A stretch of 33,816 nt of DNA from Candidatus Kaiserbacteria bacterium. GTDB taxonomy: Bacteria > Patescibacteriota > Minisyncoccia > Phycocordibacterales > UBA2100. Of this stretch, positions 10,849-27,353 are shown piece after piece. The position numbers were made by a program, and so were the translations under genes. The stretch is from positions 1 to 33,816 of the forward strand of contig JACQKA010000022.1 in assembly GCA_016204805.1 (NCBI GenBank), given 5' to 3'. Below the pieces are notes generated by a model. That model had not been told where the DNA came from, did not search any database, and saw only the letters and a list, made by a program, of their open reading frames with translations. Position 1 is the stretch's first letter; every line of letters begins with the position of its first letter.

Positions 10849-12918
10849 ATGCGTGCGCATAAGCTCTACGGAGCGACGATTTTTCTAAGCGCATTTTTAC
10901 TCTTTCTGATCCAACCGCTCATCGGACGGCACCTGCTTCCTGTGTTCGGCGGCGCATCCGCAGTGTGGGCGACGAGTCTTCTTTTCTTTACGACGGCACT
11001 CTTCCTCGGATATGCATACACGTACTATGTGAGCCGCCTGCACCCACGCACTCAGGTGCGTATTCATTTCTTTGTACTCGCAGTTGCGGTGGTGCTCGCG
11101 CTCGCACATCCGCTGTGGTATGGATCTATCTACCCATCGCTCGAATGGACGCTCACGAGTGCGTTCCCACCCGCGGCACAGGTGTTGCTCGCGCTCGCCA
11201 TATCGATCGGCATTCCCTATTTCCTGCTCGCGACGACGGGGCCTTTGGTCCAACACTGGTATGGTGTCATGGAATCAAAAGAGCCCTATCATCTCTACGC
11301 ATTGTCGAATATCGCATCATTCGTCGCGCTCGGTACGTATCCATTCGTGATCGAACCGATGTTCACCTTAAGTTTCCAGAAATCGCTATGGCTCGGGCTG
11401 TTTGCGATATTCGTAGTGCTCTATGGAGCCATTACGATATTCTTTCTGCGCAGTCACGTGCATGTCGTTATCGAGAAGCCTGCACCGACTCCCTTTCTCG
11501 AAAAATTGCGCTGGATCGGGCTCGCAAGCTTGCCCGCCGCGCTCTTGGTCGCGACCACCGCGGAGATCACCCAAGCGGTCGCCCCCGTGCCGTTCCTGTG
11601 GGTCATCCCGCTCGCGCTCTATCTGTTCACTTTCGTCATCGCTTTTCGCGGCTGGGGCAATCGTGGCATCATTCCGGCACTCGCCATACTGAGCGCCGCC
11701 GTTGCATTCATGTTTTTGGGATTCAGTTACGACGCGATCACGCGGCAGATGCTGGTGTATCTCGCATTCTTTTTCTTCACCAGCTTGTTCTGCCATGCAG
11801 AGTTGTACGCATCACGCCCCCATCGCGGTTCGTCATCATTGTTCTATCTCTGCACTGCGTTTGGAGGCATGATAGGAACGACCTTGGTGAGCATCGTCGC
11901 GCCACTCGTCTTTGTCGATGTGTTTGAATTCCCGTTCGGCCTCGCACTCGCCGCGGGTGTCGCGATCACGCTTTTCCCCGCGATGCGCTACGTGCGTGAT
12001 GAATTCGAGCGCAGTGTCATGGTGCTCCGCATCATTGCACTCGTCGTCGTCTTAGCCGCGAGCATCCACTTCTTCCAAGGTGAGGACACCTATTATTCGG
12101 TCGTCTCCCGCAATTTCTACGGTGTCGCGAAAATAAGTGAGGATGAAGAGCGGCGCAATCTTTATAACGGCACGACCTTCCACGGCGAACAGCTGTTCGA
12201 TAAAAAATTGGCATACATACCGACCACGTATTACACTGCGCCAAGCGGCATCGGTCGCGCCATACGATACGAAGAAGTACTCAACAAAAAAGTGCCGATC
12301 AATGTGGGCACTATCGGACTCGGCACGGGCACAATCGCTTCATATTGCCGCCCCGGGGATCGCTACACGTTCTATGATATAGACCCACGAATCGAAATGC
12401 TCGCGCGCACCTATTTCACCTATCTTGAACACTGTGCAGGGAGCGATGTACGTATAGGTGACGCGCGCCTTCTCCTCGACAAAGAGCGCCGTGAAGGCAA
12501 GCTCGGCACATACGACATACTCGCCGTGGATGCATTCAGTAGCGACACCATTCCTGCGCACCTCCTCACTATCGAAGCCATGCGGCTCTACCTGGAACAT
12601 CTCAAAGACGACCGTAGCCTGCTCGTTGTCCACACATCGAATCGCTATCTCACGCTTGCACCGGTCGTGCGGCGTATCGCACAAGAACTCGGGCTTACCT
12701 ATCGCATCGTGGATTCATCAAGCGATGATGCGCCATACGCGACATTTTCACAGTGGGTAATAGTTTCCCGCGATCCCCACGCATTCGAATCACCGATCTT
12801 CAAAGATCTGGAAGCAGACACAAACGAAACTCGCGCGCCGCTCTGGACCGACGATTACATGAACATATTCGCCGCCCTAAAACTCCCCACGATCTACAAT
12901 TTCAGTTCGGGTAACTAG
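10849..12918 (+). CDS. Membrane-fused spermidine-synthase-like protein
   Basis: Multiple TM segments followed by a SAM-binding-like fold: VGTIGLGTGTIASY, YTFYDIDPRIEMLA, YDILAVDAFSSDTIPAHLLT. Confidence 0.85.
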   Translation: MRAHKLYGATIFLSAFLLFLIQPLIGRHLLPVFGGASAVWATSLLFFTTALFLGYAYTYYVSRLHPRTQVRIHFFVLAVAVVLALAHPLWYGSIYPSLEWTLTSAFPPAAQVLLALAISIGIPYFLLATTGPLVQHWYGVMESKEPYHLYALSNIASFVALGTYPFVIEPMFTLSFQKSLWLGLFAIFVVLYGAITIFFLRSHVHVVIEKPAPTPFLEKLRWIGLASLPAALLVATTAEITQAVAPVPFLWVIPLALYLFTFVIAFRGWGNRGIIPALAILSAAVAFMFLGFSYDAITRQMLVYLAFFFFTSLFCHAELYASRPHRGSSSLFYLCTAFGGMIGTTLVSIVAPLVFVDVFEFPFGLALAAGVAITLFPAMRYVRDEFERSVMVLRIIALVVVLAASIHFFQGEDTYYSVVSRNFYGVAKISEDEERRNLYNGTTFHGEQLFDKKLAYIPTTYYTAPSGIGRAIRYEEVLNKKVPINVGTIGLGTGTIASYCRPGDRYTFYDIDPRIEMLARTYFTYLEHCAGSDVRIGDARLLLDKERREGKLGTYDILAVDAFSSDTIPAHLLTIEAMRLYLEHLKDDRSLLVVHTSNRYLTLAPVVRRIAQELGLTYRIVDSSSDDAPYATFSQWVIVSRDPHAFESPIFKDLEADTNETRAPLWTDDYMNIFAALKLPTIYNFSSGN

Positions 12919-12925
12919 ACGCTTC

Positions 12926-12998
12926 GCAACCACACCCTCAAAAAAGACCACTCGAGGGCGTTTGCCCAAGCTTTAGTCTTTTTTGAGGGTGTGGTTGC
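12926..12998. repeat. Palindromic element, copy 1 (73 bp; 23-bp perfect arms, 27-nt core)
   Basis: GCAACCACACCCTCAAAAAAGAC (12926-12948) / GTCTTTTTTGAGGGTGTGGTTGC (12976-12998). Confidence 0.95.
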
Positions 12999-13003
12999 TT
13001 CGC

Positions 13004-13588
13004 TTACGCGCGTGCATTCTTCAATGCCTTTGTCCACCACAATAGTTGTTCGATGAATTTCTGCGCTGGTACGGCGACGGCTTCGAAGAGCGTTTCTGCG
13101 GGGGCTTTGCCTATCAAGACCGGAACCCATTTGTCCGGCGGAAGATGAATAGCGGCACGGATAGGTACCATCTGCAGTTCTATCGCCACCATTCGAAGTT
13201 GCTCCACCGCGCGGGCTCCTGCAACCGAACCATAACTCACAAAACCTATCGCCTTCTGATTCCATTCTGGATATACATAATCAAAGGCGTTTTTGAGGAC
13301 AGCGGGGTAGCCGTGATTGTATTCGGGCGTCACGACGACGAACCCGTCTGCCTCGGCAATCTTCGCCGTCCACTTTTTCACCACTGGATGCTTGTACGGC
13401 TCCGTTTTCATCGACGGACTCACTGCTTCATCGAAAAACGGCATGGGGTAATCACGCAAATCGAGCACTTCCACATCGACGCCATTCTGTTTTTTCAATT
13501 CATTAAAAATCCACTGTGTCGGCGTTTCACTAAACCGACTCGGTCGTGTGCTCCCCATGATCACTTTTATCTTCATGTTGTCCGCCAT
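13004..13588 (-). CDS. NADPH-dependent FMN reductase family protein
   Basis: MKIKVIMGSTRPSR, VVVTPEYNHGYPAVLKNAFDYV. Confidence 0.92.
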   Translation of the reverse strand: MADNMKIKVIMGSTRPSRFSETPTQWIFNELKKQNGVDVEVLDLRDYPMPFFDEAVSPSMKTEPYKHPVVKKWTAKIAEADGFVVVTPEYNHGYPAVLKNAFDYVYPEWNQKAIGFVSYGSVAGARAVEQLRMVAIELQMVPIRAAIHLPPDKWVPVLIGKAPAETLFEAVAVPAQKFIEQLLWWTKALKNARA

Positions 13589-13589
13589 A

Positions 13590-13877
13590 TTATTTTTTAG
13601 ACTTGCCTACATCCATGGCAAGTTTTTTCAATAACCCCGCCATGTACGAGACGTTTATCGAATAATACACCTCCTGCCCCTGCCGCTCATCGTCGACGAG
13701 ATTTGCGGACTTGAGGACTGTGAGGTTCTGCGAAACTGCCGGCTGTGCCATGCGAAGCCGCGCCGCTATTTCCCCCACCGTGCGGGGGCCCCGCATCAGC
13801 GCTTCGAGAATGCGATAGCGGTTCTCATTGCCGATACCCTTCCCCATCCGCGCAATCTCCTTGCACAAATCAGTCAT
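13590..13877 (-). CDS. ArsR family transcriptional regulator
   Basis: MTDLCKEIARMGKGIGNENRYRILEALMRGPRTVGEIAARLRMAQPAVSQNLTVLKSANLVDDERQGQEVYYS. Confidence 0.9.
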   Translation of the reverse strand: MTDLCKEIARMGKGIGNENRYRILEALMRGPRTVGEIAARLRMAQPAVSQNLTVLKSANLVDDERQGQEVYYSINVSYMAGLLKKLAMDVGKSKK

Positions 13878-13895
13878 ATGCGTATATTTGCATAT
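13876..13895. promoter_or_regulatory. Candidate ArsR autoregulatory operator
   Basis: ATATGC-N8-GCATAT at the start of the ArsR gene in an AT-rich tract. Confidence 0.3.
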
Positions 13896-13964
13896 CTTTA
13901 TATATCTTGCAAGCCTAATGTTCCACAAGACTCGCTCCGCCCTTTTGCGCAGGTGTCGGCTCCG

Positions 13965-14984
13965 CTACTGCGAAGGCATCAAGGTGCGAATGCTATCTGC
14001 ATTGAGCGTGTAGGCACGCACAAATGAATCATCGACATGTGCATATAAAGTCCCACTTCCAGATTCGTGTTGCACAAATTGACTTGCGAAAGTGATCGTT
14101 TTTGCTTCTGTGTCTTGAATGAGTGGTTGCGGCGAGACCCATTCGATCTTTCCATGTTCGTAATCATAGATGAACAGGCCGATGGCGAAGGAACCGTAAT
14201 GTGTCTTCTTGCCCACTTTTCTGCTTGCTTCACGACCATTCATGATGCCAAGCATTTTTCCAGGCCCGAGATCAATAAATGATTTAGGGAATAATGGCCC
14301 TGGTGATGCATGTTCTCCTGCCCATGGAATCTTGTGATCGCCCGGATGAAATGCAACCGGACCAAATTCCCATTCCTTACCCATATCTTTCGCAATCGCA
14401 ACACGCACCGTTGAATACCAACGATGGCCGCGTTTGTCGTTGGATTCGATAAGGTTGTATCTTATTCCTTCGCTGTTTTCAGGGGCAATGGAAACCTCTT
14501 TCGCAGAATTTTTTCCTTTGGGATCGGACTGAAGCACGGGCTCAGTCATCTCAAGAGAATCGAGATCTTTGCCCACAGCGTGCCCGAGATGAACTTGTAC
14601 TGTTCCTTTTACTTTGTGTCTCAGGGGGAGTGTGAAGTACAGATGCAATTGCTGCATTCTTTCATCAAAAAAGAGGTCGGGATCTTCAAAACCGATGCAC
14701 TCCCATGCACCTCCGCCAAACTTTGTAAGAACATCTTCTCCACGGATTTCGAGACGGCCGCCGATAGTGAAATGTCCAGGCGTCGTTTCCGAGACATGAT
14801 GGATGACGCTACGATCAATATAGCCACCGACATCCACCGAACCCTCTCGGCTTGTGATGCACCGAATGACACCCCGTTTATAGTTTGAAGTTGCATCAAG
14901 CGCAATCGCCATGACATGACTGAACCGATGTCCATGTTCTATTGCCTTATCAGGATGTTGAGTATATGCGGGTGTTTTTTCCAT
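13965..14984 (-). CDS. Five-bladed beta-propeller glycosidase/phosphorylase-like protein (GH43/GH130-like)
   Basis: GFEDPDLFFDERMQQLHLYFTLP motif and 'WAGEHASPGPLFPKSFIDLGPGKMLGIMNGRE'; start taken at MEKTPAY. Confidence 0.5.
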   Translation of the reverse strand: MEKTPAYTQHPDKAIEHGHRFSHVMAIALDATSNYKRGVIRCITSREGSVDVGGYIDRSVIHHVSETTPGHFTIGGRLEIRGEDVLTKFGGGAWECIGFEDPDLFFDERMQQLHLYFTLPLRHKVKGTVQVHLGHAVGKDLDSLEMTEPVLQSDPKGKNSAKEVSIAPENSEGIRYNLIESNDKRGHRWYSTVRVAIAKDMGKEWEFGPVAFHPGDHKIPWAGEHASPGPLFPKSFIDLGPGKMLGIMNGREASRKVGKKTHYGSFAIGLFIYDYEHGKIEWVSPQPLIQDTEAKTITFASQFVQHESGSGTLYAHVDDSFVRAYTLNADSIRTLMPSQ

Positions 14985-15118
14985 AGAATTTCTCCTAACC
15001 CCTTCAAGCATGCGGACAGTATACCAGAGACGACGCTTCATTCGGAGCGGAGAGTAAAATGAAAAAGCGAGTACCGAGGACCCGCTCCTCGCTAGCCGCA
15101 GTAACAAGCTGGAAGCAA

Positions 15119-15147
15119 TTGACTTGGTACGAAGTTGTGATACAGGT
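15119..15147 (+). promoter_or_regulatory. Candidate promoter of fused E1 gene
   Basis: TTGACT, 17-nt spacer, ACAGGT. Confidence 0.3.
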
Positions 15148-15187
15148 TATGATAGATACGAACCTTAAAAAGAGGAGTGGGTAGGAA

Positions 15188-17383
15188 ATGAACGGACATG
15201 TAGCACGGCTTTCCAGGGAGAATCAGCTCCTGATGTACGAAATCATGTATAAAGGGCGTACCATTGATGAAAAGATCAGTGAGAGCGTCAAGACCTCTGA
15301 CGGGCTCATCCCGACGGGAGGTTTTGTCACGATCGGAGAAGAAGCAGTTTCTGCAGGCGCCGCTATGGCGCTTAATCCGAAACTTGATTGGGTCGGTATG
15401 CAGCATCGCTGTAAACCTGGATATATCCGATTCGGCGTTACGCCGTACGAAGACTTTATGAATCAAGGATGTCGGAAAGAATCTTCGACCGGCGGCAGAG
15501 ATGGGACAGTGCATTATGCATTCGTCCATCGTCATGTGCTCAAGTTCATTAGCCACATGGGTGCTCAAGTGGGAGCCGCATGCGGAGTCGTCGAAGGCCT
15601 GCGCTATCTGTATGATCTTGAGAAACGGGAAGGAGAGCTTCCGGTCTGCCAGGTGTATTTTGGAGATGGCGCCGCGCAACAGGGTATCATCCATGAGGCG
15701 ATGAACTATGCAGCCACGCGCAATCTTCCGGTCATCTTTGTGATAGACAACAATCACATCTCGACCGTGACGCGTGCGGACGGAGAATACGCAGGAAGGC
15801 ATTTATTTCCCCGCGCTCTTGGTTACAACATCGGCTGGCGGTATGTGGAAAACGGCAACGATGTTGTCGCTGTCTACAACGCTGCATATGAACTGGTTGA
15901 GCGTGCGCGCAGCATTGCCCGCTGTGGTCCCGGAGAATCGGGTCCCACCAAAGGTGAGGTGCGTGCGCCGGCAATTCTCGAATGCAACACATTCCGCTGG
16001 TCGGCTCATAACGAGTCGTTCATGCTACAGGATGTGGATCTCGACGAATGGCGCGAATGGCGCGCTCGCGATCCGGTCCGTATGTATCGCAATTTCCTGC
16101 TCGAGCTTCGCAGTGTCGAAGCGCTTAAGAAGGTAACCAGCAGAGAACCGCGAGCCATGCGTCTAGTGGAAGATCGTGAATTCAGCGAGGAAGAAATCAT
16201 CGCCATTGAAAAACGTGTGAAGGCGGAGGTTGAAGAGGCCTACGCGAAAGCGAAGGCGATGGAAAACCCCGATCCCAAAAAAGATGGGCTCGGCGACGTG
16301 TACCCCCCGACCGTGATCGTAAAAAAGGAGCGCATTGTCGAGCCGCTCCGAGCAGGTCTCCGTACGAGTTTCTCGAACGAAGAGTTGAAAAGCAAGCGGT
16401 CGTTTATGCGGTCGCTCCAAGATGTCATCAGGGAAACTCTGCGCGCTGACAAACGAGTACGCTATTTCGGAGAAGATGTCCGCGGACACGGCAACCATAT
16501 GGGAGGGGTGTCAGGCAAAACGCTCCTTGCGATCAAGGATCCGGATATTCTTGAAGAGCAGGTGTTTAACACACCACTCTCTGAGATGGCGATCATTGGC
16601 TCTGCGATCGGCCAGTCCTTGGTCGGGATCAAGCCGATCGCTGAAATTCAATATATGCCGTTCATGTCGGTTGGGATCTCGCAATTGACTGATTACGCTG
16701 CGACTCATTATTACACGACTCATACCCCCATTCAAGCAATGTTCACGATGCAATATGGCGGTCCCGCAGGCGGCGACTTCCATAGCAACACACGGCTTGA
16801 GGCGACACTCTTTCATACGCCAGGCATCAAGATGGTCGATCCGTCGACTCCGGCTGATGTGGCTGGACTTTTCAGGTCAGCTATGAAAACGCAAGCGCCA
16901 GTCATCTTTAAGACGAACGTCTGGGCATTCTCGCGCATCTATGGAGATCCCGCACCTGATGGATATGAAGTTCAGATCGGCATACCAGCACTTCGCAAGG
17001 AAGGTACGGATCTTACCATTATTACGTGGGGTCCGAGAATGCTCTTTGACGTAGTCGCTCCGGCAATAACGCGTCTTGAAGCGGAGGGACATTCGATCGA
17101 ACTCATTGAGCTTCGTTCTATCCAACCGTATGACCTCGAGTTCCTCGTGGATTCGGTGAGGCGCACGCGACGAGCTCTGGTTGTGCATCAGGATGTGGAG
17201 ATGGGTGGCGTTGGTGAATCAATTGCCTCCGCGATCACGAAAGATGCGAACTTCGATATGCGCGCAATCTCATACGGAGCCGCATATACTCCCACGCCCC
17301 AGCATCCAAATCTGGAACAGTATTTCCTGCCCTCAGCTGATGGCGTGTACAAGCACTCTATGAGGCTGCTCAAACATTGGTAA
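15188..17383 (+). CDS. Fused alpha/beta 2-oxoacid dehydrogenase E1 component (pyruvate or branched-chain)
   Basis: ThDP motif GDGAAQQGIIHEAMNYAATRNLPVIFVIDNN in N-half; transketolase beta half with EQVFNTPLSEMAIIGSAIG and C-terminal domain. Confidence 0.92.
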   Translation: MNGHVARLSRENQLLMYEIMYKGRTIDEKISESVKTSDGLIPTGGFVTIGEEAVSAGAAMALNPKLDWVGMQHRCKPGYIRFGVTPYEDFMNQGCRKESSTGGRDGTVHYAFVHRHVLKFISHMGAQVGAACGVVEGLRYLYDLEKREGELPVCQVYFGDGAAQQGIIHEAMNYAATRNLPVIFVIDNNHISTVTRADGEYAGRHLFPRALGYNIGWRYVENGNDVVAVYNAAYELVERARSIARCGPGESGPTKGEVRAPAILECNTFRWSAHNESFMLQDVDLDEWREWRARDPVRMYRNFLLELRSVEALKKVTSREPRAMRLVEDREFSEEEIIAIEKRVKAEVEEAYAKAKAMENPDPKKDGLGDVYPPTVIVKKERIVEPLRAGLRTSFSNEELKSKRSFMRSLQDVIRETLRADKRVRYFGEDVRGHGNHMGGVSGKTLLAIKDPDILEEQVFNTPLSEMAIIGSAIGQSLVGIKPIAEIQYMPFMSVGISQLTDYAATHYYTTHTPIQAMFTMQYGGPAGGDFHSNTRLEATLFHTPGIKMVDPSTPADVAGLFRSAMKTQAPVIFKTNVWAFSRIYGDPAPDGYEVQIGIPALRKEGTDLTIITWGPRMLFDVVAPAITRLEAEGHSIELIELRSIQPYDLEFLVDSVRRTRRALVVHQDVEMGGVGESIASAITKDANFDMRAISYGAAYTPTPQHPNLEQYFLPSADGVYKHSMRLLKHW

Positions 17384-17391
17384 AGGAACAG

Positions 17392-17421
17392 CCGCCCGCG
17401 ATATACCGCGGGCGGTTTTTT
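17392..17421 (+). terminator. Rho-independent terminator after E1
   Basis: CCGCCCGCG-ATATAC-CGCGGGCGG-TTTTTT. Confidence 0.9.
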
Positions 17422-17427
17422 GCGATA

Positions 17428-17456
17428 TTGACAAATCATATAAAAAGTAAGATGGT
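17428..17456 (+). promoter_or_regulatory. Candidate promoter for lipoyl/E2 genes
   Basis: TTGACA (17428-17433), 17-nt spacer, GATGGT (17451-17456). Confidence 0.45.
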
Positions 17457-17488
17457 GAGTGACAGGATCTTTAAGAAAAGAGGACGAC

Positions 17489-17764
17489 ATGAAAATCGCG
17501 ATCACCGTTCCTATCTCGTATGAAGTGCAGGAGGCGACCGTCGAGAAATGGTATAAGAAAATCGGCGACTCCATAGTAGCGGGCGATTCACTGCTCGATT
17601 GCGCCACCGAGAAAGTTGTCATCGAAATTCCGGCCCCTGCAGACGGCGTGCTTTTGGAGATCATAGCGAAAGACGGTGAGTCAGTCTTTCGCCCGGAGCA
17701 CGCGCCCACCACAGGCAACTGGGACGCCACGGTCGGCTATATGGAAACGGGTAACACGCCATGA
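17489..17764 (+). CDS. Stand-alone lipoyl (biotinyl/lipoyl attachment) domain protein
   Basis: VEKWYKKIGDSIVAGDSLLDCATEKVVIEIPAPADGVLLEI; RBS AGGACG before ATG at 17489. Confidence 0.88.
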   Translation: MKIAITVPISYEVQEATVEKWYKKIGDSIVAGDSLLDCATEKVVIEIPAPADGVLLEIIAKDGESVFRPEHAPTTGNWDATVGYMETGNTP

Positions 17765-18591
17765 CTGGAATGGCTTCCGCATCGCACCCGCCGGGAACAC
17801 TTATACTCAAACCCTCGCAAGAATTGTTGAGAAAAGCGCACGGTCTTGAAGGACTGAACAACCGACTCACCTATACCACTAAAGAGAGGCGAGTCGTCGT
17901 TGCCGGTGGCGAACCGATTGCATACAATCTGTATAAACTCCTCGCATTCAAAAAGGAGCTCGACTATCGGTTTCAAGAAGTATTACACGTACGTGTGCGG
18001 CCATGGATGTTTGTTGCGCTTGCCGTAGCGCGCGTGCTGACGCGAGATGCATTCGCAACATTGAACGGCTACTGGAACACGCATGATACTGACCAGAAAT
18101 ATGACAGCGTTGCGCTGTATGCATCCGTCCATCTCGGGTTCTCGTACGACCGTGGCACTCCACCGCGCATTGATAGAGAGCAGAGAACGATCGGCGAAGG
18201 GACTCCCGGTTTGCGGATTCTCACACTGCGCGACGCGCACATGAAATCATGCGCAGAATTTCTTGCTTCGCTCGATGATCTGCTCAAGAGAGCAGATCTT
18301 GATACACGGAAAGGAACGCGTATCAAAGACACAAAGCTTGAAGAGTGGACGGGCGCGACTTTCATATTCAACAATATCGGGGCGTTGCGCCACGCGCGCG
18401 GCTGGTCAATCCTGTCACCGCATATATCCGCGCTTATGAATATGGGACACATTGCCCCTGACGGTACAGCCACGTTCCAGATCTTTTTCGACCATCGGAT
18501 GTGTGACGGCTCGCTAGTGACTGCGTTTACGGACGCTGTATATGAGGAGCTCGGGCGCGTGCTCACGGAAGTGAACGCGCTCATCGCGTAG
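17761..18591 (+). CDS. Stand-alone 2-oxoacid dehydrogenase E2 acyltransferase catalytic domain
   Basis: FDHRMCDGSLVTAF (DHRxxDG) and FIFNNIGALRHARGWSILSPHISALMNMG; 4-bp ATGA overlap with the lipoyl gene. Confidence 0.88.
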   Translation: MTGMASASHPPGTLILKPSQELLRKAHGLEGLNNRLTYTTKERRVVVAGGEPIAYNLYKLLAFKKELDYRFQEVLHVRVRPWMFVALAVARVLTRDAFATLNGYWNTHDTDQKYDSVALYASVHLGFSYDRGTPPRIDREQRTIGEGTPGLRILTLRDAHMKSCAEFLASLDDLLKRADLDTRKGTRIKDTKLEEWTGATFIFNNIGALRHARGWSILSPHISALMNMGHIAPDGTATFQIFFDHRMCDGSLVTAFTDAVYEELGRVLTEVNALIA

Positions 18592-18596
18592 CAAAA

Positions 18597-18632
18597 AAGG
18601 CACCTGCGGAAAACAGGTGCCTTTCCCTTTTT
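18597..18632 (+). terminator. Rho-independent terminator after E2
   Basis: AGGCACCTG-CGGAAAA-CAGGTGCCT-TTCCCTTTTT. Confidence 0.85.
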
Positions 18633-18683
18633 GACCTGCTTTAACCACAAAAAATCGCGCTGACAATAGTGTATATTTTCTGT

Positions 18684-18821
18684 ATGTTCGGACACGATAC
18701 ACAGTTCATCATCGATTTTGATAGCACGCTTGTCTCCCTGGAGACGCTCGACGAACTCGCGAAGATCACGCTCGCAGATGACATCTGGGACAGTTTTGAT
18801 AAGGTAAACGCAGAATCATAG
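18684..18821 (+). pseudogene. N-terminal remnant of phosphoserine phosphatase-like HAD protein (45-aa ORF)
   Basis: MFGHDTQFIIDFDSTLVSLETLDELAKITLADDIWDSFDKVNAES*: HAD motif I DFDST at the N-terminus then abrupt stop, directly upstream of serA. Confidence 0.6.
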
Positions 18822-18832
18822 GAGGCGCCGTA

Positions 18833-20041
18833 ATGAGCAGAGGAACAGTGGTGTTACTCAACACGATCCATGATCGTGCACAAAAAATGTTCGACCAAAA
18901 CGATTACCGCGTAGTGCTGGCATCGACGTCAGCACTCAAGGGCGAGTTACACAGGGAATTGCGTGATGCGGTCGTGCTCGGTATTCGTTCGAGCAATACC
19001 GTAACAGAAGCGATGCTCGAGCAGATGCCGAATCTGCTTGCAATCGGCGCATTTTGCATCGGCACGAACCAGATAGACATAGCCGCATGTTCAAAGCGCG
19101 GCATCGCAGTCTTCAACGATCGACACAGCAGTGCGCGCAGTGTCGCGGAACTTGCGCTCGCATGTATGTTGAATCTGTCGCGCGGCATCGGTGATCACAG
19201 CAAGTCCATGCACGATGGCATCTGGAACAAGCGTGCCAAGGGAGCACACGAGATCCGTGGCAAAAAATTGGGCATCGTGGGCTACGGCAACATCGGTACG
19301 CAATTATCGGTCATGGCAGAAGGTCTCGGTATGCAGGTGTATTTCTACGATGTTGCTGATAAGCTTGCGCTCGGCAATGCACGCAAATGTGCGTCTCTTG
19401 TTGAGTTACTTTCGACAGTTGATGTCGTCAGCATGCACATTGACGGCCGCGGCGCGAATAAGAAAATTATGGGTGAGCAAGAATTCAGTCTGATGAATCG
19501 CGATGCATATTTCATCAACGTAAGCAGAGGAAGTGTTGTTGACGAAATAGCTCTCGCACATGCGCTCATGAGCGGTAGACTTGGCGGCGTCGCGCTCGAT
19601 GTGTTCGAAAAGGAGCCATCTGGTAACGAGGAGTTTGCTTCGCCGCTCAGGAATATGCGGAACGTTATTCTCACGCCGCATATCGGCGGCAGTACGGAAG
19701 AAGCGCAGGAAAACATAGGTGCGTTCGTTGCAGAAAAATTGCGCGCGTATCTCGAAACCGGCTCGACCGCGCTTTCGGTCAACCTACCGCAAGTCACTAT
19801 GCAAGAGATGCACCGACAATACCGCATTACGCACCTACACCGGAATGTGCCGGGTGTCATGGCGAACATCAACGCCCTCTTTGCGCACAGCAAAATAAAC
19901 ATCGAAGCCCAACGTCTGCAAACCGCAGGAGAGTTGGGATACGCAGTCATCGACCTGAATCAACCGTGCGATGCGAGTCTACTGCAGGCACTGCACGATA
20001 TTCCAGAGACCATACGGCTTCGAGAGATCGACAGAGCATAA
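18833..20041 (+). CDS. serA: D-3-phosphoglycerate dehydrogenase with ACT domain
   Basis: LGIVGYGNIGTQLSVMAEGLGMQVYFYD, NVSRGSVVDE, ILTPHIGGSTEEAQENIG, C-terminal ACT-like region. Confidence 0.93.
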   Translation: MSRGTVVLLNTIHDRAQKMFDQNDYRVVLASTSALKGELHRELRDAVVLGIRSSNTVTEAMLEQMPNLLAIGAFCIGTNQIDIAACSKRGIAVFNDRHSSARSVAELALACMLNLSRGIGDHSKSMHDGIWNKRAKGAHEIRGKKLGIVGYGNIGTQLSVMAEGLGMQVYFYDVADKLALGNARKCASLVELLSTVDVVSMHIDGRGANKKIMGEQEFSLMNRDAYFINVSRGSVVDEIALAHALMSGRLGGVALDVFEKEPSGNEEFASPLRNMRNVILTPHIGGSTEEAQENIGAFVAEKLRAYLETGSTALSVNLPQVTMQEMHRQYRITHLHRNVPGVMANINALFAHSKINIEAQRLQTAGELGYAVIDLNQPCDASLLQALHDIPETIRLREIDRA

Positions 20042-20044
20042 AAC

Positions 20045-20070
20045 AAGGGAGGCCAGTGGCCTCCCTTTTT
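20045..20070. terminator. Terminator between convergent operons
   Basis: AAGGGAGGCC-AGT-GGCCTCCCTTTTT. Confidence 0.85.
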
Positions 20071-20075
20071 AATTT

Positions 20076-21212
20076 CTACTTGTCCAGATTCTTTGCAATC
20101 ACCTCGAGCTGGATGTTGTTCGCACCCTCATAGATGAGCGTAGGGAAAATATCCATGAGTCGTGGGAGCCAAGGCATCTCTTGCGTCACTGCCATGCCGC
20201 CAAAATAGGTAGCAAGCTTGCCACCGTATTGCCATGCGATTTCTGTGGCATTTTCCTTCGCTTCCGATGCTATTTTGGTACAGTATTCACCGCGATCGCG
20301 CATTTCTGATGCAGCGAGCACCAGTGTCCACGCCGCTTCCAGCCGCGCATGCGCCTGGGCAAAATCGAGTCTCACTTTCTGATTGTCCCAGACCGCTCTG
20401 TCGAATTGTCTTCGCGTTTTAGTCCACTCAAGAGCGGTGTCGAAGATCCACATCGCCATACCAATCGCCTGCGCGGCGATATTGATGCGCCCGCCATCCA
20501 AGGTCTTCATGGCTATGTCCCAGCCGTCTCCTTGGAGCAGGGTGTCTTCTGGCAGTACCGCATCTGCAAATGATATCTCGCAAAAATCGGAACTTTTCAA
20601 CACACGCTTGGGAAGATAGCGGACATTGACACCCGGATGTTTCAATCCTGGCGCTGATTCAAGAACAAAAGCGGAAATGTCTCTGAATCCTGTGCGGGCA
20701 AACATCACTGCTACGGACGCGTGCAATGCATTCGTAATGAATGTTTTCGTACCGTTAACTACCCACCCATCTTTTTGGAGATGTGCATGAATTTTCATCG
20801 AACGTGCATCCGAACCCGCATTCGGCTCGGTAAGCGCATAACAGCCGAGGATTTCACCCGAGGCGAGTTTTGGCAGAATCCGTTTTTTCTGTTCCTCACT
20901 ACCCGCATACATAATGGGAAATGCCGCAAGCGAGCTATTCGCTGTCCATATCAGATGAAAAGACGGCCAGTAATAGGCAACTTCGCGTGCAACATACGAT
21001 GCCGCAACGGTGTTCATGCCCATGCCACCATATTGCTCGGGAATCGTGAGCCCGAATAATCCAAGACTGCCCGCTTTCTTCACAGGCTCTGCCGGGAACT
21101 TCCCTTCCTCCTCGTGAGTAGTATAAGCGGGTAGTAGCTCTTCCTCGCCGAATTTGCGGACCGTATCAAGTATCGCCCGCAATGAATCGTCGTGTGGTTC
21201 TGTCCACCGCAT
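20076..21212 (-). CDS. Acyl-CoA dehydrogenase
   Basis: CYALTEPNAGSDARSM, LPKRVLKSSDFCEISFADAVLP, C-terminal LIYEGANNIQLEVIAKNL (catalytic-type Glu). Confidence 0.93.
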   Translation of the reverse strand: MRWTEPHDDSLRAILDTVRKFGEEELLPAYTTHEEEGKFPAEPVKKAGSLGLFGLTIPEQYGGMGMNTVAASYVAREVAYYWPSFHLIWTANSSLAAFPIMYAGSEEQKKRILPKLASGEILGCYALTEPNAGSDARSMKIHAHLQKDGWVVNGTKTFITNALHASVAVMFARTGFRDISAFVLESAPGLKHPGVNVRYLPKRVLKSSDFCEISFADAVLPEDTLLQGDGWDIAMKTLDGGRINIAAQAIGMAMWIFDTALEWTKTRRQFDRAVWDNQKVRLDFAQAHARLEAAWTLVLAASEMRDRGEYCTKIASEAKENATEIAWQYGGKLATYFGGMAVTQEMPWLPRLMDIFPTLIYEGANNIQLEVIAKNLDK

Positions 21213-21249
21213 GCTTTTTCTCCCTTTGTGTCTGATCTTTCTCTAACAT

Positions 21250-21277
21250 AAAAAAAGCCCCCGCGCGAGCGCGGGGG
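21250..21277 (-). terminator. Rho-independent terminator after SDR
   Basis: CCCCCGCG-CGAG-CGCGGGGG with U-run on minus strand. Confidence 0.85.
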
Positions 21278-21292
21278 ATTCTACTGAGAGTT

Positions 21293-22114
21293 TTAACTTA
21301 CCAAGTAACCGCCATCAACAGGCAGGCAGGCACCGTTTATGGCACTCGCTTCTTTGCTTGCCAGCCATAGTACGGTCTGAGCAATTTCCGCCGGCTGTAT
21401 TTTTCTCCTTTGTGGATTCCGTGCGAGGTACGACGCCAATGCCGCATCAGAAAGGTCAGTGGTCATCGGTGTTTCTACGATACCAGGGGCCACCGCATTC
21501 ACGGTGATATCCAAAGCGGGTTCATCGCGGTTTTTGTTAAACGGCGCTTCACAAGCAAGGGTCTTGGTCAGAGAAAGTACCGCGGCTTTTGATGCCGCAT
21601 ATGCGAGATTGCCTACGTCTCCCTTAAGTCCCTCCACCGAGGCAATATTTACAATCCTGCCGTATCCGGCCCTGCGCATGTATGGTAATACCGCATGACA
21701 ACAGTGCAGTGTTCCCCAAAAGTTCACGTCCATCACACGGCGCATGGAAAGAAAATTCTGCTCCGTTACTTTTGCCAGAGTCTGCATGGCATCCTTGGGC
21801 ATAATGCCAGCCGCATTTACTAAAACACTGATGCCCCCGCAGTCCGATGCTATGGATTGTAAACCATCGCTCACCGCTGCAAGATCAGTAACATCCAAAT
21901 CCCATGTTTTGATTTCACAATTAACATTCCGGGTACTCAGTGGAAAAAGGTCATGAAGTTCTCGATGCAGTTCTTTCAACTGCACGTATGCCTTCGTATG
22001 ATCGAGAAGGGTGATGTATAATGCGTCGCTACCGTATGTAGCGACAAATTGCTCCGCTATCGCCCTACCAATACCACCCGCAGCACCGGTAATAACGACC
22101 ACCTGTTCCTTCAT
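21293..22114 (-). CDS. Short-chain dehydrogenase/reductase (3-oxoacyl/3-hydroxyacyl type)
   Basis: VITGAAGGIGRAIA, NAAG, YAASK, PGIVETPMT. Confidence 0.92.
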   Translation of the reverse strand: MKEQVVVITGAAGGIGRAIAEQFVATYGSDALYITLLDHTKAYVQLKELHRELHDLFPLSTRNVNCEIKTWDLDVTDLAAVSDGLQSIASDCGGISVLVNAAGIMPKDAMQTLAKVTEQNFLSMRRVMDVNFWGTLHCCHAVLPYMRRAGYGRIVNIASVEGLKGDVGNLAYAASKAAVLSLTKTLACEAPFNKNRDEPALDITVNAVAPGIVETPMTTDLSDAALASYLARNPQRRKIQPAEIAQTVLWLASKEASAINGACLPVDGGYLVS

Positions 22115-22149
22115 TTTTCAGTCTCCTTTCCAAATGCCGATCCCATGAA

Positions 22150-22178
22150 ACCCTACAGCACGGTGGCAACTGCGTCAA
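22150..22178 (-). promoter_or_regulatory. Candidate promoter for SDR
   Basis: Minus strand TTGACG, 17-nt spacer, TAGGGT. Confidence 0.45.
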
Positions 22179-22180
22179 AT

Positions 22181-22207
22181 AAAAAGCCCCCGCGCGAGCG
22201 CGGGGGC
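22181..22207 (-). terminator. Rho-independent terminator after HMG-CoA lyase
   Basis: GCCCCCGCG...CGCGGGGGC with U-run on minus strand. Confidence 0.88.
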
Positions 22208-22215
22208 TTCTCCAA

Positions 22216-23106
22216 CTACTTCAAAGATCGTAGATATCGCGATGGAAGCTCGTGTCCAAGCACTGCTTCCATGTACCGCGATGCTTTGACGAGTTTTGCA
22301 ATGTCGATGCCGGTCGTGATGTTACTTTTCGCAAAGCAGTCCACGACATCTTCGGTAGCAACATTGCCGACCGACACGTTGGCGAACGGACAACCGCCCA
22401 ATCCGCCAGCGGAGCTATCGAATGTCCGAATACCGAGGGCATACCCACGCTCGATGTTCGCGAGCGCATTGCCATCAGTATCGTGCATATGAAGTGCAAA
22501 GCAAGATGTGCCGTGCCGTGCGAGTACAACGTCGAGAAGCTGTGACACTTCATCAGGACTCGCTTTGCCGATCGTATCCGCAAGTGACACTTCATAGACG
22601 CCGAGATCAAAGAGTGCGGTTGCAACATCGAGAACTTTCTGTGGATCAACTCGGCCTTCGTACGGACACCACCATGCTGTTGATACGTATCCACGCACCA
22701 CCATGTCAGAGCGCAAGGCACATGCGACAATGCCGCGATATGCCTCGATCGATTCGTCAATGGACTGTCTAATGTTCCGTACGCTGAATGTATCAGATGC
22801 CGCGGCAACAATGGCGATTTCTTTAACGCCCGACGCAAGCGCTCGAACTAATCCTACGCCGTTTGCAACAAGTGCAGAATAGTGCGCGGGTGGGTATGTA
22901 AGTAGTGCCTCACATACCACCTGTGCATCACGCATCTGCGGCACAAGGTCAGGTCGAACAAATGACGTGACCTCGATGTGCCGACACCCCGCATCCACCA
23001 ATTTCTTGATGAACGCTATCTTGTGTTCGGTCGCGATGAAGTCCTCAATATTCTGGAGCCCATCGCGCGGACCGACTTCGACAATGCGAACGTCATTTCG
23101 ATCCAT
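22216..23106 (-). CDS. Hydroxymethylglutaryl-CoA lyase-like protein
   Basis: VEVGPRDGLQN, CPYEG, LADTIGKASP, HMHDTDGNALANI, SAGGLGGCPFANVSVGNVATEDVV. Confidence 0.92.
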   Translation of the reverse strand: MDRNDVRIVEVGPRDGLQNIEDFIATEHKIAFIKKLVDAGCRHIEVTSFVRPDLVPQMRDAQVVCEALLTYPPAHYSALVANGVGLVRALASGVKEIAIVAAASDTFSVRNIRQSIDESIEAYRGIVACALRSDMVVRGYVSTAWWCPYEGRVDPQKVLDVATALFDLGVYEVSLADTIGKASPDEVSQLLDVVLARHGTSCFALHMHDTDGNALANIERGYALGIRTFDSSAGGLGGCPFANVSVGNVATEDVVDCFAKSNITTGIDIAKLVKASRYMEAVLGHELPSRYLRSLK

Positions 23107-24799
23107 AGCTCTTCTCCACCAGTGCGGGCCACAGCGTCCAAAGCCCTTGCACGGACTCTGGCTTCTTCATGCCCGAATACGCTGCGTGCAAAAACCACGT
23201 AAGGTACTCGCGGAGTCGTGACAAATTCACGACTTCATCAACGATACCCTGCCTTGCAACATAGTGCGGGCAGGCGCTCTCGCTGTACTTTTCCACGAGT
23301 CCGTTCATTTTCGCAATGACAGAAAGCCGCTCCGTATCATCTGCCGCCTTTTTAAGAGCGCGGCCAAAACAAGCGATTGCAGCGGTTTCTTTGTGCATGA
23401 CCATGACCTCGGTCACTGCAGTTCCGATCGTGAGCGCATTGTTGGACGCCATCGGTCCGCACATTACGTAGTGGCTCGCCGCATGCCCCTTTCGAAGCAC
23501 GACGGTAGCCATTGGAATGTTCGCGCGTTCGATTGCATAGATGAGCGCCTGCCCCAGACCGAGGAGCCCTGCCTTTTCGGCTTGGTCTCCGACGTCGATT
23601 CCCGACGTGTCTTGGAGCCAGATCATCGGCACCTTATTTTCATCGCACCACGAGACGAATTTACACATCTTCACCAAACCCTGCCGGTACAATTTCCCTC
23701 CTATGCCAGGATAATCCGCATACTCGGGATAGCCGCGAGGAAGGAAGCCCTGCCGATTGGCAACTATGCCTGCAGAGAGTCCGTCAACGGATACGACTCC
23801 GCAATACACTTCGGGGCCATATCCTGGCAGATATTCTCTTGATGTACTTCCGTCTACCAGTCGGGCAAGTATATCTTCCGTCTTGTATGTCATTTTTGAA
23901 TCATGAGGTATTAGGTAGTACAGATCCTCACCGTCATATTTTGGAGGGTCTGTGACGTCCCACAGTTCTTGCGGGTCATCTGCACCGCGAGCGGCAATGC
24001 ACGACCTCATGGCTTCGATCACTTCTTTCTCCGTCCCGTGTACACTGTCGAAGAATCCCGTCTGCGTATGAACGGTTGAGCTACCGGGGGGCGGAATCTT
24101 GCTGATCCGTTCCATTTCCTCCAGCAGCGCAGTAACATCCTCTTCGCTAAAACCACTCTTCGAAGACCGCATACCGCTCAAAATCGCCGCGCCGCCGACC
24201 GCCATGCTGGCGTCTGCGTGCGCCAAGCGCTTGGTGGCGGAAATACCGTGATAGCCGCCGCCCGCGGGATTGGTTCCGAAGATGCCCGCGATGATGGGGA
24301 TGCCCTTCGCCGAAAGGCGAGCGTTATTGAAGAATATCTTTCCACCGCTGTCGTGACCAGTGTATACCCGATCCTGTCGTTCAAGATCGAGCCCGCTACA
24401 TTCAAGAAGCCACATGATGGGTGTGTGTAGCAATTCCGCCAACCGCTGTATACGCAGTATCTTTTGGGGTTGGCCGGGAAGCCACGCTCCCTTGCGTAGT
24501 TCAGGATTGGATGCGATGACGCACACGCATTCCCCATGCACTTTTGCCAGTCCAGTGATGACGCCGGTTGCTCCTTCAGGATTGCATTCCGGATCATACA
24601 GACTCCCGAGATCAAGAAACGTTCCAGGGTCAACGAGTAGCGTGATGCGCTCCCGCACGACCCTTTCTTTCCTTGCGCTCTGGGAGTGCCCAAGTACACG
24701 CTCGGTTTCCTTGATACGTGCGGCATTCGTTTCGTTCCGCGTATAGTCACCTGGGGAACATGCTCTTCCCAAGGTCTCTAGTCTGCCGAAATCGCTCAT
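23093..24799 (-). CDS. Acyl-CoA carboxylase carboxyltransferase, glutaconyl-CoA decarboxylase alpha (GcdA)-like
   Basis: FGTNPAGGGYHGISATKRLAHADASMAVGGA and GGKLYRQGLVKMCKFVSWCDENKVPMIWLQDTSGIDVGDQAEKAGLLGLGQALIYAI resemble GcdA more than classical MCC/PCC beta. Confidence 0.88.
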   Translation of the reverse strand: MSDFGRLETLGRACSPGDYTRNETNAARIKETERVLGHSQSARKERVVRERITLLVDPGTFLDLGSLYDPECNPEGATGVITGLAKVHGECVCVIASNPELRKGAWLPGQPQKILRIQRLAELLHTPIMWLLECSGLDLERQDRVYTGHDSGGKIFFNNARLSAKGIPIIAGIFGTNPAGGGYHGISATKRLAHADASMAVGGAAILSGMRSSKSGFSEEDVTALLEEMERISKIPPPGSSTVHTQTGFFDSVHGTEKEVIEAMRSCIAARGADDPQELWDVTDPPKYDGEDLYYLIPHDSKMTYKTEDILARLVDGSTSREYLPGYGPEVYCGVVSVDGLSAGIVANRQGFLPRGYPEYADYPGIGGKLYRQGLVKMCKFVSWCDENKVPMIWLQDTSGIDVGDQAEKAGLLGLGQALIYAIERANIPMATVVLRKGHAASHYVMCGPMASNNALTIGTAVTEVMVMHKETAAIACFGRALKKAADDTERLSVIAKMNGLVEKYSESACPHYVARQGIVDEVVNLSRLREYLTWFLHAAYSGMKKPESVQGLWTLWPALVEKSYGSK

Positions 24800-25851
24800 G
24801 ATTTTTCCTCCATCTGTTTGAGCTCGAAGTTAGGGACTCTCTTTTCCAATACCGCTCGGATGCCTTCCGCAAGAAGAGGATGTCGATAGAGCATCGAATC
24901 GCACTTCATCTCTGTGCGGAAAAAATGCTCCTCTTCATACGGGATGCCGTACGCTAGAAACAACGTACGGAGCGCCTGTATTGATTGAGGTGCGAGGGGC
25001 ATTTTCAATTCCGCAATTTCATTCCGAACATCCCCGAGGGGTTTCCCCCACAGATGACTATATGTATGAGGATCGCATCTTCGTGCGACCTCTGCTTCCA
25101 TGTCATCCTCACTCATGAGTATGGTGGGAACGCGAGTTTTGATCTTGCTCAAGGCGAGCTTGAACGCCCGTTGGAACAATGCCGCGAGCATACAGCTACC
25201 GACCACTGCGTCCAAAACACCGATAGCTTTGAGTTCACGTGCGGTTGTTTTTCGTGCTGTCGCAACGAGACAACGCGCATTATGATGCCCTGCCTTGGTA
25301 CTCAATCGCGCGAGACCACCCCATCCAGGGATGAGTCCGATGGTCGCCTCGCTCATGCAGATAGTCGTGCGGGGATCGCCGACCATCTGATCCGCCCAGA
25401 GCGCAATTTCTGCAGACCCGCCGTAATAATCACCGCCGGGAAGTACAGAAATAATGCGTAGGTGTTTTGCGAGCGCGCGTACTCTTTTATAGAGCGCGAA
25501 CGCCGTGAGCAACCGTCGATCCGCCCACCTGTATCCGCGTTTCGTACGCAGACTGGTGAGTGTTTCTTTGAGATCGCCACCGGCGTGTACTGGATCGGGT
25601 GCAAACGAAAAGATGAGGAACGATAATTCCCTCTTTCGCCGCTCGATGAGTTTCAGCTCCGACGCATAGGCGTCTAACACGTGCGTGTCTATTTGATGCA
25701 CCGGCGGATTCTCATAGTGCAGTACCACGCCGCGAGTCCCTTTGAAGGACACGGTGTGTGCGTGTAGCATTTTGAGACCGCCCCATGCCACGGTGCAGGA
25801 ATCCAAAATCTGGGCACCGGTACTTTCAATGGCTTGGCGCAGTTGGTCCAT
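24796..25851 (-). CDS. Enoyl-CoA hydratase/isomerase (crotonase) family protein
   Basis: GVVLHYENPPVHQIDTHVLDAYASEL, GDYYGGSAEIALWADQMVGDPRTTICMSEATIGLIPGWGGLARL; 4-bp overlap with downstream gene. Confidence 0.85.
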   Translation of the reverse strand: MDQLRQAIESTGAQILDSCTVAWGGLKMLHAHTVSFKGTRGVVLHYENPPVHQIDTHVLDAYASELKLIERRKRELSFLIFSFAPDPVHAGGDLKETLTSLRTKRGYRWADRRLLTAFALYKRVRALAKHLRIISVLPGGDYYGGSAEIALWADQMVGDPRTTICMSEATIGLIPGWGGLARLSTKAGHHNARCLVATARKTTARELKAIGVLDAVVGSCMLAALFQRAFKLALSKIKTRVPTILMSEDDMEAEVARRCDPHTYSHLWGKPLGDVRNEIAELKMPLAPQSIQALRTLFLAYGIPYEEEHFFRTEMKCDSMLYRHPLLAEGIRAVLEKRVPNFELKQMEEKS

Positions 25852-25893
25852 GCAGTTCCTTCCTCTCTTTATATGTCAAAGCTCCTGTCCGAC

Positions 25894-25922
25894 ACCATAC
25901 AATTCTGAACTGTGTGAGTCAA
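25894..25922 (-). promoter_or_regulatory. Candidate promoter for crotonase-GcdA-HMGL operon
   Basis: Minus strand TTGACT, 17-nt spacer, TATGGT. Confidence 0.5.
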
Positions 25923-25924
25923 GG

Positions 25925-25955
25925 AAAAACTCCGGCAGATTTTGCCGGAGTTTTT
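25925..25955. terminator. Bidirectional-looking terminator after thiolase
   Basis: AAAAACTCCGGCA-GATTT-TGCCGGAGTTTTT. Confidence 0.9.
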
Positions 25956-25957
25956 GT

Positions 25958-27157
25958 TCATGTTCTTTCCAAAAGAACAGCGACCGCCTCGCCGCCGCCG
26001 TTACAGGCGACCGCGACGCCTCTCTTTTTCTTCAGCGCAACAAGCTGGTGTGCGAGCTGGCCCACGATGCGCGTGCCGGTCGCACCCAAGGGATGCCCGA
26101 TCGCGATCGACCCGCCCCACACGTTCATCTTTTCGCGTGGGATGTAGAGCCATCGCATTGCAAAAAGCGGAACGACAGCAAATGCTTCGTTCACTTCGAA
26201 CAGATCAATGTCATCGATCTTAAGACCGCAACTATCAAGAAGTTTCTTGGTTGCGCTCGCCGGCGCTGTTGTATACCAATTCGGCCCATGCGAACAAACC
26301 GCGAAATCGCATATGCGCGCGATTGGTTCGATACCCATGTGGCGAACGGAAGGCTCATCAGCGATAAGAAGCCCCGACGCGCCGTCTGCGATCTGTGCCG
26401 ACGTCGCCGCAGTGATGGTGCCTTTCTTGTCGAATGCTGGCGGCATTTTTTTTATCTTGGTAGCATCCGCCACCCGCAGACCTTCGTCTTTGTATAGGCC
26501 GCTCACTGATGCCATCCACGTATCGAAACAGCCGTCACTGTGCGCATTGTTGGCGCGAGCAAAGCTTTCGATCGCGTACTCTTCCTGCGCTTCGCGCGTG
26601 ATGCCGAAGTGCGCCGCACAATACTCCGCGACAGCGCCCATGTGGGGTCGACCTTCAGCCGACGGTTCGGAAAGTCCATCGTACACCATGCTGTCGTACG
26701 CTTCCCGCGGCGATTCCTTGCCTGATTTGATATAGAGACTGGATAGCGTCTCATCGCCCATACGTTTTGCACCACGCCGGATGAGATAGGGTGCCCTACT
26801 CATGCTCTCCATGCCGCCCGCGATCATGCAGTCGGCCTCGTCGAGCTGGATCATATGAGTCGCGTGTCGTAGCGCCACGAGTGATGACGCGCACACTTTG
26901 TTGAATGTCTCTCCGGGACATGTATGCGGCAAACCGCTCTGTAGCGCCGCATGACGCGCAGGGTTCTGTCCTTCGCCCGCAGTCAAGACCTCGCCCATGA
27001 ACACCCCCTTCACCATATCGAGAGGTAGATTGCTCCTCTCTAATAAAGATCTGATGACCACTGCTCCGAGTTCAGAGCTCGAATGTTCTTTCAACGACCC
27101 GCAGAAACTGCCATGCGCGGTGCGCACGGCATCGCAAATGTACACACTTCGCTTCAT
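25958..27157 (-). CDS. Acetyl-CoA acetyltransferase (thiolase)
   Basis: VCASSLVALRHATHMIQ, GGSIAIGHPLGATGTRIV, ACNGGGEAVAVLLER. Confidence 0.94.
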   Translation of the reverse strand: MKRSVYICDAVRTAHGSFCGSLKEHSSSELGAVVIRSLLERSNLPLDMVKGVFMGEVLTAGEGQNPARHAALQSGLPHTCPGETFNKVCASSLVALRHATHMIQLDEADCMIAGGMESMSRAPYLIRRGAKRMGDETLSSLYIKSGKESPREAYDSMVYDGLSEPSAEGRPHMGAVAEYCAAHFGITREAQEEYAIESFARANNAHSDGCFDTWMASVSGLYKDEGLRVADATKIKKMPPAFDKKGTITAATSAQIADGASGLLIADEPSVRHMGIEPIARICDFAVCSHGPNWYTTAPASATKKLLDSCGLKIDDIDLFEVNEAFAVVPLFAMRWLYIPREKMNVWGGSIAIGHPLGATGTRIVGQLAHQLVALKKKRGVAVACNGGGEAVAVLLERT

Positions 27158-27184
27158 GTGTGTCTCCTCTATTGCTCTGTGGTC

Positions 27185-27212
27185 ACCCTAGCGCATTTGT
27201 GTGGGAGTGCAA
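27185..27212 (-). promoter_or_regulatory. Candidate promoter for thiolase
   Basis: Minus strand TTGCAC, 16-nt spacer, TAGGGT. Confidence 0.3.
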
Positions 27213-27225
27213 TGCGCAAGCCGGA

Positions 27226-27353
27226 GTCGCCACATCCTCCAAAAAGACTGGAGCTTGGGCAATTCCCGTTTTGCCCAAGAGCGAAGCGATTGGATGCAAA
27301 ACGCAATCCTGTAAGGGACGCCCTCGAGTGGTCTTTTTGGAGGATGTGGCGAC
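27226..27353. repeat. Palindromic element, copy 2 (128 bp; 23-bp perfect arms, core with 55-bp insert)
   Basis: GTCGCCACATCCTCCAAAAAGAC (27226-27248) / GTCTTTTTGGAGGATGTGGCGAC (27331-27353); core ends match copy 1. Confidence 0.95.

Follow-up and report, generated by a model that had tools for sequence, protein, structure and literature searches.

REP sequences and REPINs, with their associated RAYT (Y1) transposases, are short, multi-copy, palindromic and mostly intergenic repeats located downstream of coding regions, in which a conserved palindrome is combined with a GTAG or CGTC tag (PMC3116915, PMC3733652). Template switching, for its part, is a known source of perfect hairpins and of their upkeep; one event suffices to produce perfect arms in a new stem, compensated and fully paired changes of several bases, and inverted copies of neighbouring sequence (PMC8794818). 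Here we present a family of hairpin repeats that recalls both. Two of its copies lie in a 33,816-nt stretch of DNA (the window; contig JACQKA010000022.1, or C61, of Candidatus Kaiserbacteria bacterium assembly GCA_016204805.1), which is part of a metagenome-assembled genome (MAG) of 748 kb in 71 contigs, hereafter the host. They occupy positions 12926-12998 (copy 1) and 27226-27353 (copy 2), and each consists of a constant tip between perfectly paired arms that vary from copy to copy. The family is a non-coding, dispersed and probably mobile hairpin element of one order of the Patescibacteria, and the explanation that we prefer, with a probability of roughly 0.6, is that inverted copying of the neighbouring DNA both produces the arms and keeps them perfectly paired.

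In size and place these repeats are comparable to REPs, REPINs and other small hairpins dispersed in genomes, but they depart from them in the defining traits. The arms are hypervariable and the tip constant, inspection of the copies listed revealed no conserved unpaired GTAG or CGTC tag (as defined in PMC3733652) at the tip or at the element ends, and co-occurrence with a Y1 (RAYT) transposase, typical of REPINs, is not consistent. An ordinary miniature inverted-repeat transposable element (MITE), copied as a unit and with its terminal inverted repeats homogenised by occasional correction, would account for a non-coding repeat that has inverted ends and is present in multiple scattered copies, as well as for the large part of the inner arm that the copies of genome G118 have in common. 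However, MITEs conserve their terminal inverted repeats, whereas here variability peaks at the ends and conservation at the centre; no transposase is associated, and no target duplication stands out clearly. We consider this explanation very improbable.

Integron attC sites combine conserved outer R boxes with a variable centre; here the pattern is reversed, the centre being conserved and the outer arms variable. Mitochondrial double-hairpin elements are tiny hairpin repeats, probably mobile and sometimes nested; we know of no constant tip with host-derived arms either in these or in the SDR repeats of cyanobacteria, both of which are compared by description only. The SDR repeats (Elhai et al. 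2008, cited in PMC3116915) are equally tiny, probably mobile and sometimes nested. Insertion at a palindrome centre is a feature of IS1397-type insertion sequences targeting REP palindromes, as they appear in the reference list of PMC3116915; the present family is without coding sequence, and five congeneric sites free of the element hold no palindrome. Rfam 15 gave no gathering-threshold match in the window; sub-threshold matches, mainly to microRNA and small RNA models, were seen in three loci. No known REP, MITE or Rfam family was matched, a match of all copies to a MITE or REP family being what the first-pass annotation of the window had named as grounds for abandoning its proposal, and the open-licence literature searched held no account of such a family. 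We are apparently dealing with undescribed short hairpin repeats of these ultra-small bacteria.

Architecture and pairing of the copies

Both copies are located exactly where the first-pass annotation had placed them. Their 23-nt arms are 100% complementary (12926-12948 with 12976-12998; 27226-27248 with 27331-27353), and the arms of the two copies differ at five positions, each compensated in the opposite arm, as had been claimed. The core strand, which reads GACCACTCGAGGGCG, is the plus strand for copy 1 and the minus strand for copy 2; on this strand both copies start 7-8 nt past a stop codon, in the same orientation to the gene and after similar spacers, again in agreement with the earlier description (ACGCTTC after the TAG that ends at 12918; GCGCCTTC, on the minus strand, after the TAA at 27362-27364). 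The earlier division into 23-bp variable arms and a shared core holds with two amendments: only 20 nt of each arm vary, as the inner GAC/GTC is invariant, and the greater length of copy 2 is due to an insert that had been overlooked, 56 nt (27263-27318) which replace the single loop T of copy 1 inside the GGGC/GCCC loop, separate the two core halves and belong to a separate repeat family. RNA folding energies of the window copies are 8 to 10 standard deviations below those of dinucleotide shuffles. The features are the following:

12920-12925, plus: left flank motif CGCTTC of copy 1, outside the arm, semi-conserved in most host copies
12926-12948, plus: 5' arm of copy 1 (short form), 20 variable nt and the invariant GAC
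12946-12978, plus: 33-nt tip of copy 1, GACCACTCGAGGGCGTTTGCCCAAGCTTTAGTC, with the GGGC/GCCC helix and the proposed loop pairs nt 5-16 and 6-15
12976-12998, plus: 3' arm of copy 1, GTC and 20 nt, perfectly complementing the 5' arm
12999-13004, plus: right flank motif TTCGCT of copy 1 (TCCGCT in most host copies)
27331-27353, minus: 5' arm of copy 2 (long form) on the core strand, 20 nt and GAC
27319-27333, minus: 5' core half of copy 2, GACCACTCGAGGGCG
27263-27318, minus: 56-nt nested insert in the tip loop of copy 2, related to the GGACTGC-stem-loop-stem-GGGAGC hairpin element of Patescibacteria
27246-27262, minus: 3' core half of copy 2, TTGCCCAAGCTCCAGTC
27226-27248, minus: 3' arm of copy 2, GTC and 20 nt, perfectly complementing the 5' arm
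10849-12918, plus: gene upstream of copy 1, earlier called spermidine synthase-like; its MFS/spermidine synthase match is weak and under the curated cut-off
27362-28396, minus: gene that precedes copy 2 on the core strand, D-Ala-D-Ala ligase C-terminal/ATP-grasp, in keeping with its earlier label (Ddl-like)

The search for further copies that had been recommended brought the total in the host genome to 12, of which six have the short form of 73 nt and six the long form of 128-129 nt, and found more across the order. Since these 12 copies of a single genome, once the inserts are removed, align without gaps over 73 columns (20 variable nt and GAC, 27 core nt, GTC and 20 variable nt), the palindrome pattern is not due to chance. 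Among the 276 cells of the host arm helix, 61 show a change in both partners, no cell shows one in a single partner, and 5 are mismatched, which extends to the whole set the compensated arms around an invariant core first noted in the window; sliding or shuffling the arm partners abolishes the pattern. Four of the five mismatches are G-U pairs if read on the strand opposite the core strand. The mean pairwise difference among the 12 copies is 0.40 in the arms versus 0.048 in the core halves (about 8-fold), and the nested insert of the long forms differs by 0.02-0.13 between pairs. Were the arms merely drifting, with correction between them, the insert should have drifted equally, unless it is constrained too.

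Selection on a folded RNA or DNA, the original interpretation of the compensated arms, fares differently in the tip and in the arms. In the tip, nt 5 of the internal loop covaries with nt 16 of the apical loop (G-C in 35 copies, A-T in 24, G-T in 2 and C-T in 1, as raw copy counts uncorrected for shared ancestry); in one more copy with A-T, the adjacent 6-15 pair is broken. Both main states are present within each of the genomes G118, G141, G146 and G270, on more than one sequence background. As this pair is non-nested and is not explained by copying between nested arms, its covariation suggests that the tip fold is under selection. For the arms the balance is the opposite. Of about 1650 aligned arm positions, 1524 are Watson-Crick pairs, and G-U pairs number only 15 if the core strand is read and 21 if the opposite strand is, fewer than slow compensation by way of G-U intermediates would be expected to leave behind; with the roughly 8-fold arm/core rate and the inverted flank copies described below, this makes selection for RNA pairing the weaker explanation for the arms.

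A functional RNA at gene 3' ends (a terminator, a messenger RNA stabiliser or an RNase III processing site), its stem kept by compensatory selection, would agree with the covarying loop positions and with the location of the copies, which are mostly intergenic and close to stop codons (gene calls being a simple choice of open reading frames) and which in the host follow a gene in core orientation in 8 of 9 clear cases. An intrinsic terminator at one orthologous site in genome G187 and terminator-like hairpins at two in G246 point the same way, and given the position of the copies a terminator or 3'-end role is possible. However, the rule that the core strand follows the gene fails in other genera, where orientation to the neighbouring gene is mixed. 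Intrinsic terminators have a GC-rich stem directly followed by a U-tract; here the T-run lies inside the stem and not after it, as the first-pass annotation had recognised in setting aside a canonical terminator, and in host copy C59 this A/T run is replaced by CCGGA/TCCGG. The minus strand of copy 1 contains one weak terminator consensus match. The near absence of G-U pairs, a patchy distribution and arms that are inverted copies of coding ends, which pairing selection does not predict, add to the case against a functional RNA, and we regard it as unlikely.

Gene ends in the arms and congeneric sites without the element

When a covariance model built from the 12 host copies was applied across the order (E<=0.01), it matched 18 of 397 sampled genomes in 11 genera, the host included, often in multiple copies. 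These counts are lower bounds, with 12 candidates scored per genome, and three genomes have at least 12 matches each. The other sampled genomes of the host family gave no convincing match to the model (one weak, E 0.78). Across the phylum, a near-exact tip pattern, a less sensitive test than the covariance model, was found in 1 of 380 sampled genomes; the exact host tip pattern was not found in GTDB r220 contigs, and it took the covariance model to reveal the family. Searches of plasmids, phages and IMG/VR returned nothing useful.

Outside the host the tip reads GACC[A/G]CTCCGGGGCG[T/C]TTGCCCAAGTCTTAGTC, with variants, and it centres site-specific palindromes with arms of up to about 70 nt. 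Past the inner arms, complementarity often runs on for 10 to 50 nt in sequence unique to the site, with outward decay at some sites, and such outer arms around one tip are seen in several genera. Between copies without any core difference, the arms differ by 0.29 in G118 and by 0.46 in G141. One might suspect an assembly or library artefact, in which a constant linker joins inverted arms, given that most carriers are MAGs and that a constant sequence in this setting is adapter-like. But the tip differs with lineage, the arms can be old and decayed, and the copies sit in otherwise syntenic regions of independent genomes; such an origin is scarcely credible.

Two side observations concern individual genomes of this set. 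In the congeners G300 (L156) and G403 (L157), nearly the same arms, with compensated differences, enclose different tip variants (CCGGGGC..GCCCAAG versus CCAAGGGC..GCCCGG), as if tip and arms were able to change independently. At L170:9657-9880 in G206, a different repeat, of about 200 nt, adjoins an element copy; it recurs at many sites in G206 and at some in G246.

The arms of three copies in genome G141 contain the ends of neighbouring genes, with an inverted copy opposite. At rpoD (L167) the left arm holds the last 14 codons and the stop (KIRQHDKINRLKNY*), and the right arm, once reverse-complemented, is a diverged, decayed copy of the same DNA. The end of the topoisomerase I gene (topA; 35 nt, L168) and that of a HIT-domain gene (27 nt, L176) are likewise found in an arm. 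One arm is therefore native coding sequence and the other an inverted copy, the very arrangement by which template-switch hairpins are recognised. Unlike the scattered mutations reported in PMC8794818, however, the events here recur around one constant, repeated tip and in many genomes.

The element is missing at all eight orthologous sites compared in congeners, and five of these also lack any matching palindrome. Five sites of G118 are element-free in G187: four without a matching palindrome, and the fifth with a hairpin of different sequence that is an ordinary bidirectional intrinsic terminator. One copy of G270 is missing without trace in two congeners, and at two sites of G206 the gap in G246 holds other, terminator-like hairpins. 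G118 has no fewer than 19 matches to the element versus one found in G187, which points to spread within one lineage. No target-site duplication was evident by eye in the congener alignments, in which the flanks are diverged.

These sites also bear on the proposal that the tip inserts at the centre of pre-existing palindromes, as some insertion sequences do with REP hairpins, so that the arms belong to the target. The arms are indeed site-unique past the inner 20 nt, many further perfect palindromes exist in the approximately 270 kb of the host genome scanned for them, and three congener sites bear other hairpins. Insertion into ready-made palindromes is nevertheless mostly contradicted by the five congeneric sites that have none; moreover, a coding arm such as that of rpoD, with a decayed opposite copy, is untypical of a pre-existing hairpin, and the inner arms of the host have one consensus and one exact length in common. 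We judge this proposal to be quite unlikely.

Proposed fold-back copying at the tip

The inverted copy of rpoD and the palindrome-free congeneric sites make inverted copying at the DNA level the best explanation of the perfect arms. Template switching within the palindrome had been offered by the first-pass annotation as an alternative, as a means of correcting the arms; we favour it and, given the inverted flank copies in related genomes, extend it from correction to the creation of arms. The constant part is the 33-nt tip, GAC...GTC, in which a GGGC/GCCC helix is joined by a likely pairing of the apical with the internal loop. A replicating strand that has copied flank plus tip may fold back at the tip, where the GTC end would pair with GAC and this closing helix would serve as primer; synthesis would then continue along the strand's own flank and place an inverted copy on the other side. 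Repeated events could lengthen, replace or correct the arms and would leave them site-specific yet paired around a constant tip. Such a model accounts for the constant tip, the perfect site-specific arms, the gene ends within them and the palindrome-free congeners.

Several points weigh against this interpretation. The gene-end cases all come from G141 and none from the window's own genome or its two copies; in the host, arms measure about 20 nt, share a consensus and are not necessarily copied from the flanks now beside them. The congeners are only about 70% identical, and loss of the element in them is a residual possibility; the other hairpin in the same gap at three of the eight sites would also fit terminator replacement. 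We infer both the fold-back mechanism and the mobility of the copies, the former from sequence comparison. No mobilising enzyme was found for their dispersal, and no transposase co-occurs consistently with the element: PF01797 (Y1/RAYT) is present in G000 and G118 and undetected in the high-copy genomes G141, G146, G206 and G270 in a genome-by-genome comparison of co-occurrence, which leaves the Y1 transposase unsupported as the mobiliser.

More tentative, and on balance doubtful, is the idea that the tip serves selfishly as a dedicated fold-back primer, whose selected three-dimensional fold allows it to build a perfect palindrome from the adjoining DNA. If so, a replicating strand would be made to turn back and copy the host flank wherever the tip lands. 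Long, perfect, compensated stems are usually taken as evidence of RNA selection, and the present case warns that covariation counts can report a strong 'RNA structure' where DNA copying may be the cause. The family provides tens of natural examples that share a constant tip, at some of which the second arm is traceable to the neighbouring gene, and it makes the building and maintenance of hairpins by template switching directly testable in related genomes.

A nested second element and other hairpins

Half of the host copies, the long forms, hold in their tip loop a second hairpin element, which is widespread in Patescibacteria. These bacteria harbour two hairpin repeat families, one nested in the other, with no description in the literature searched. 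The insert is related to a hairpin of about 43-60 nt, GGACTGC-YRTTTGT-loop-ACAAAYR-GGGAGC. A scan of GTDB genomes for this pattern found 76 stretches, nearly all in MAGs of Patescibacteria (Kaiserbacteria, Azambacteria, Nomurabacteria, Zambryskibacteria and others); the matches in clearly other groups (L081, L086, L105, L126, L131) all fail the stem test. The loops differ in sequence and often form a further hairpin, and tRNA-like sequence contains or adjoins some of the copies. At L032:1430-1740, L029:1490-1630 and L034:1490-1690 the second element is in or beside duplicated tRNA-like fragments, which adjoin intact tRNA-Gln, tRNA-Tyr and tRNA-Asn genes; L034 has another copy with a different loop. 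Three tandem, near-identical copies are present at L025:1314-1478, with similar gene-start stretches (DnaG-like) on either side. A possible in-frame insertion of this element in an ABC-F gene (L024) leaves the frame open but adds no length relative to YheS, and is not claimed.

Other hairpins were noted in passing. A second set of perfect palindromes in the host (L134:2017-2151, L144:195-331, L144:2458-2596, L136:16063-16140 and L147:17179-17221) has a common outer arm, (C)CC[GC]CACACCAA, and variable inner arms, with related loops of 91-95 nt in three members and a 3-nt loop in one. On host contig C68, about 20 bp separate a perfect palindrome with 29-bp arms and an unrelated 88-nt loop (L147:17291-17436) from the contig's short copy. 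The window itself contains two terminator-like hairpins (GCCCCCGCGCGAGCGCGGGGG) at 21247-21282 and 22176-22211, 92% alike and 929 bp apart.

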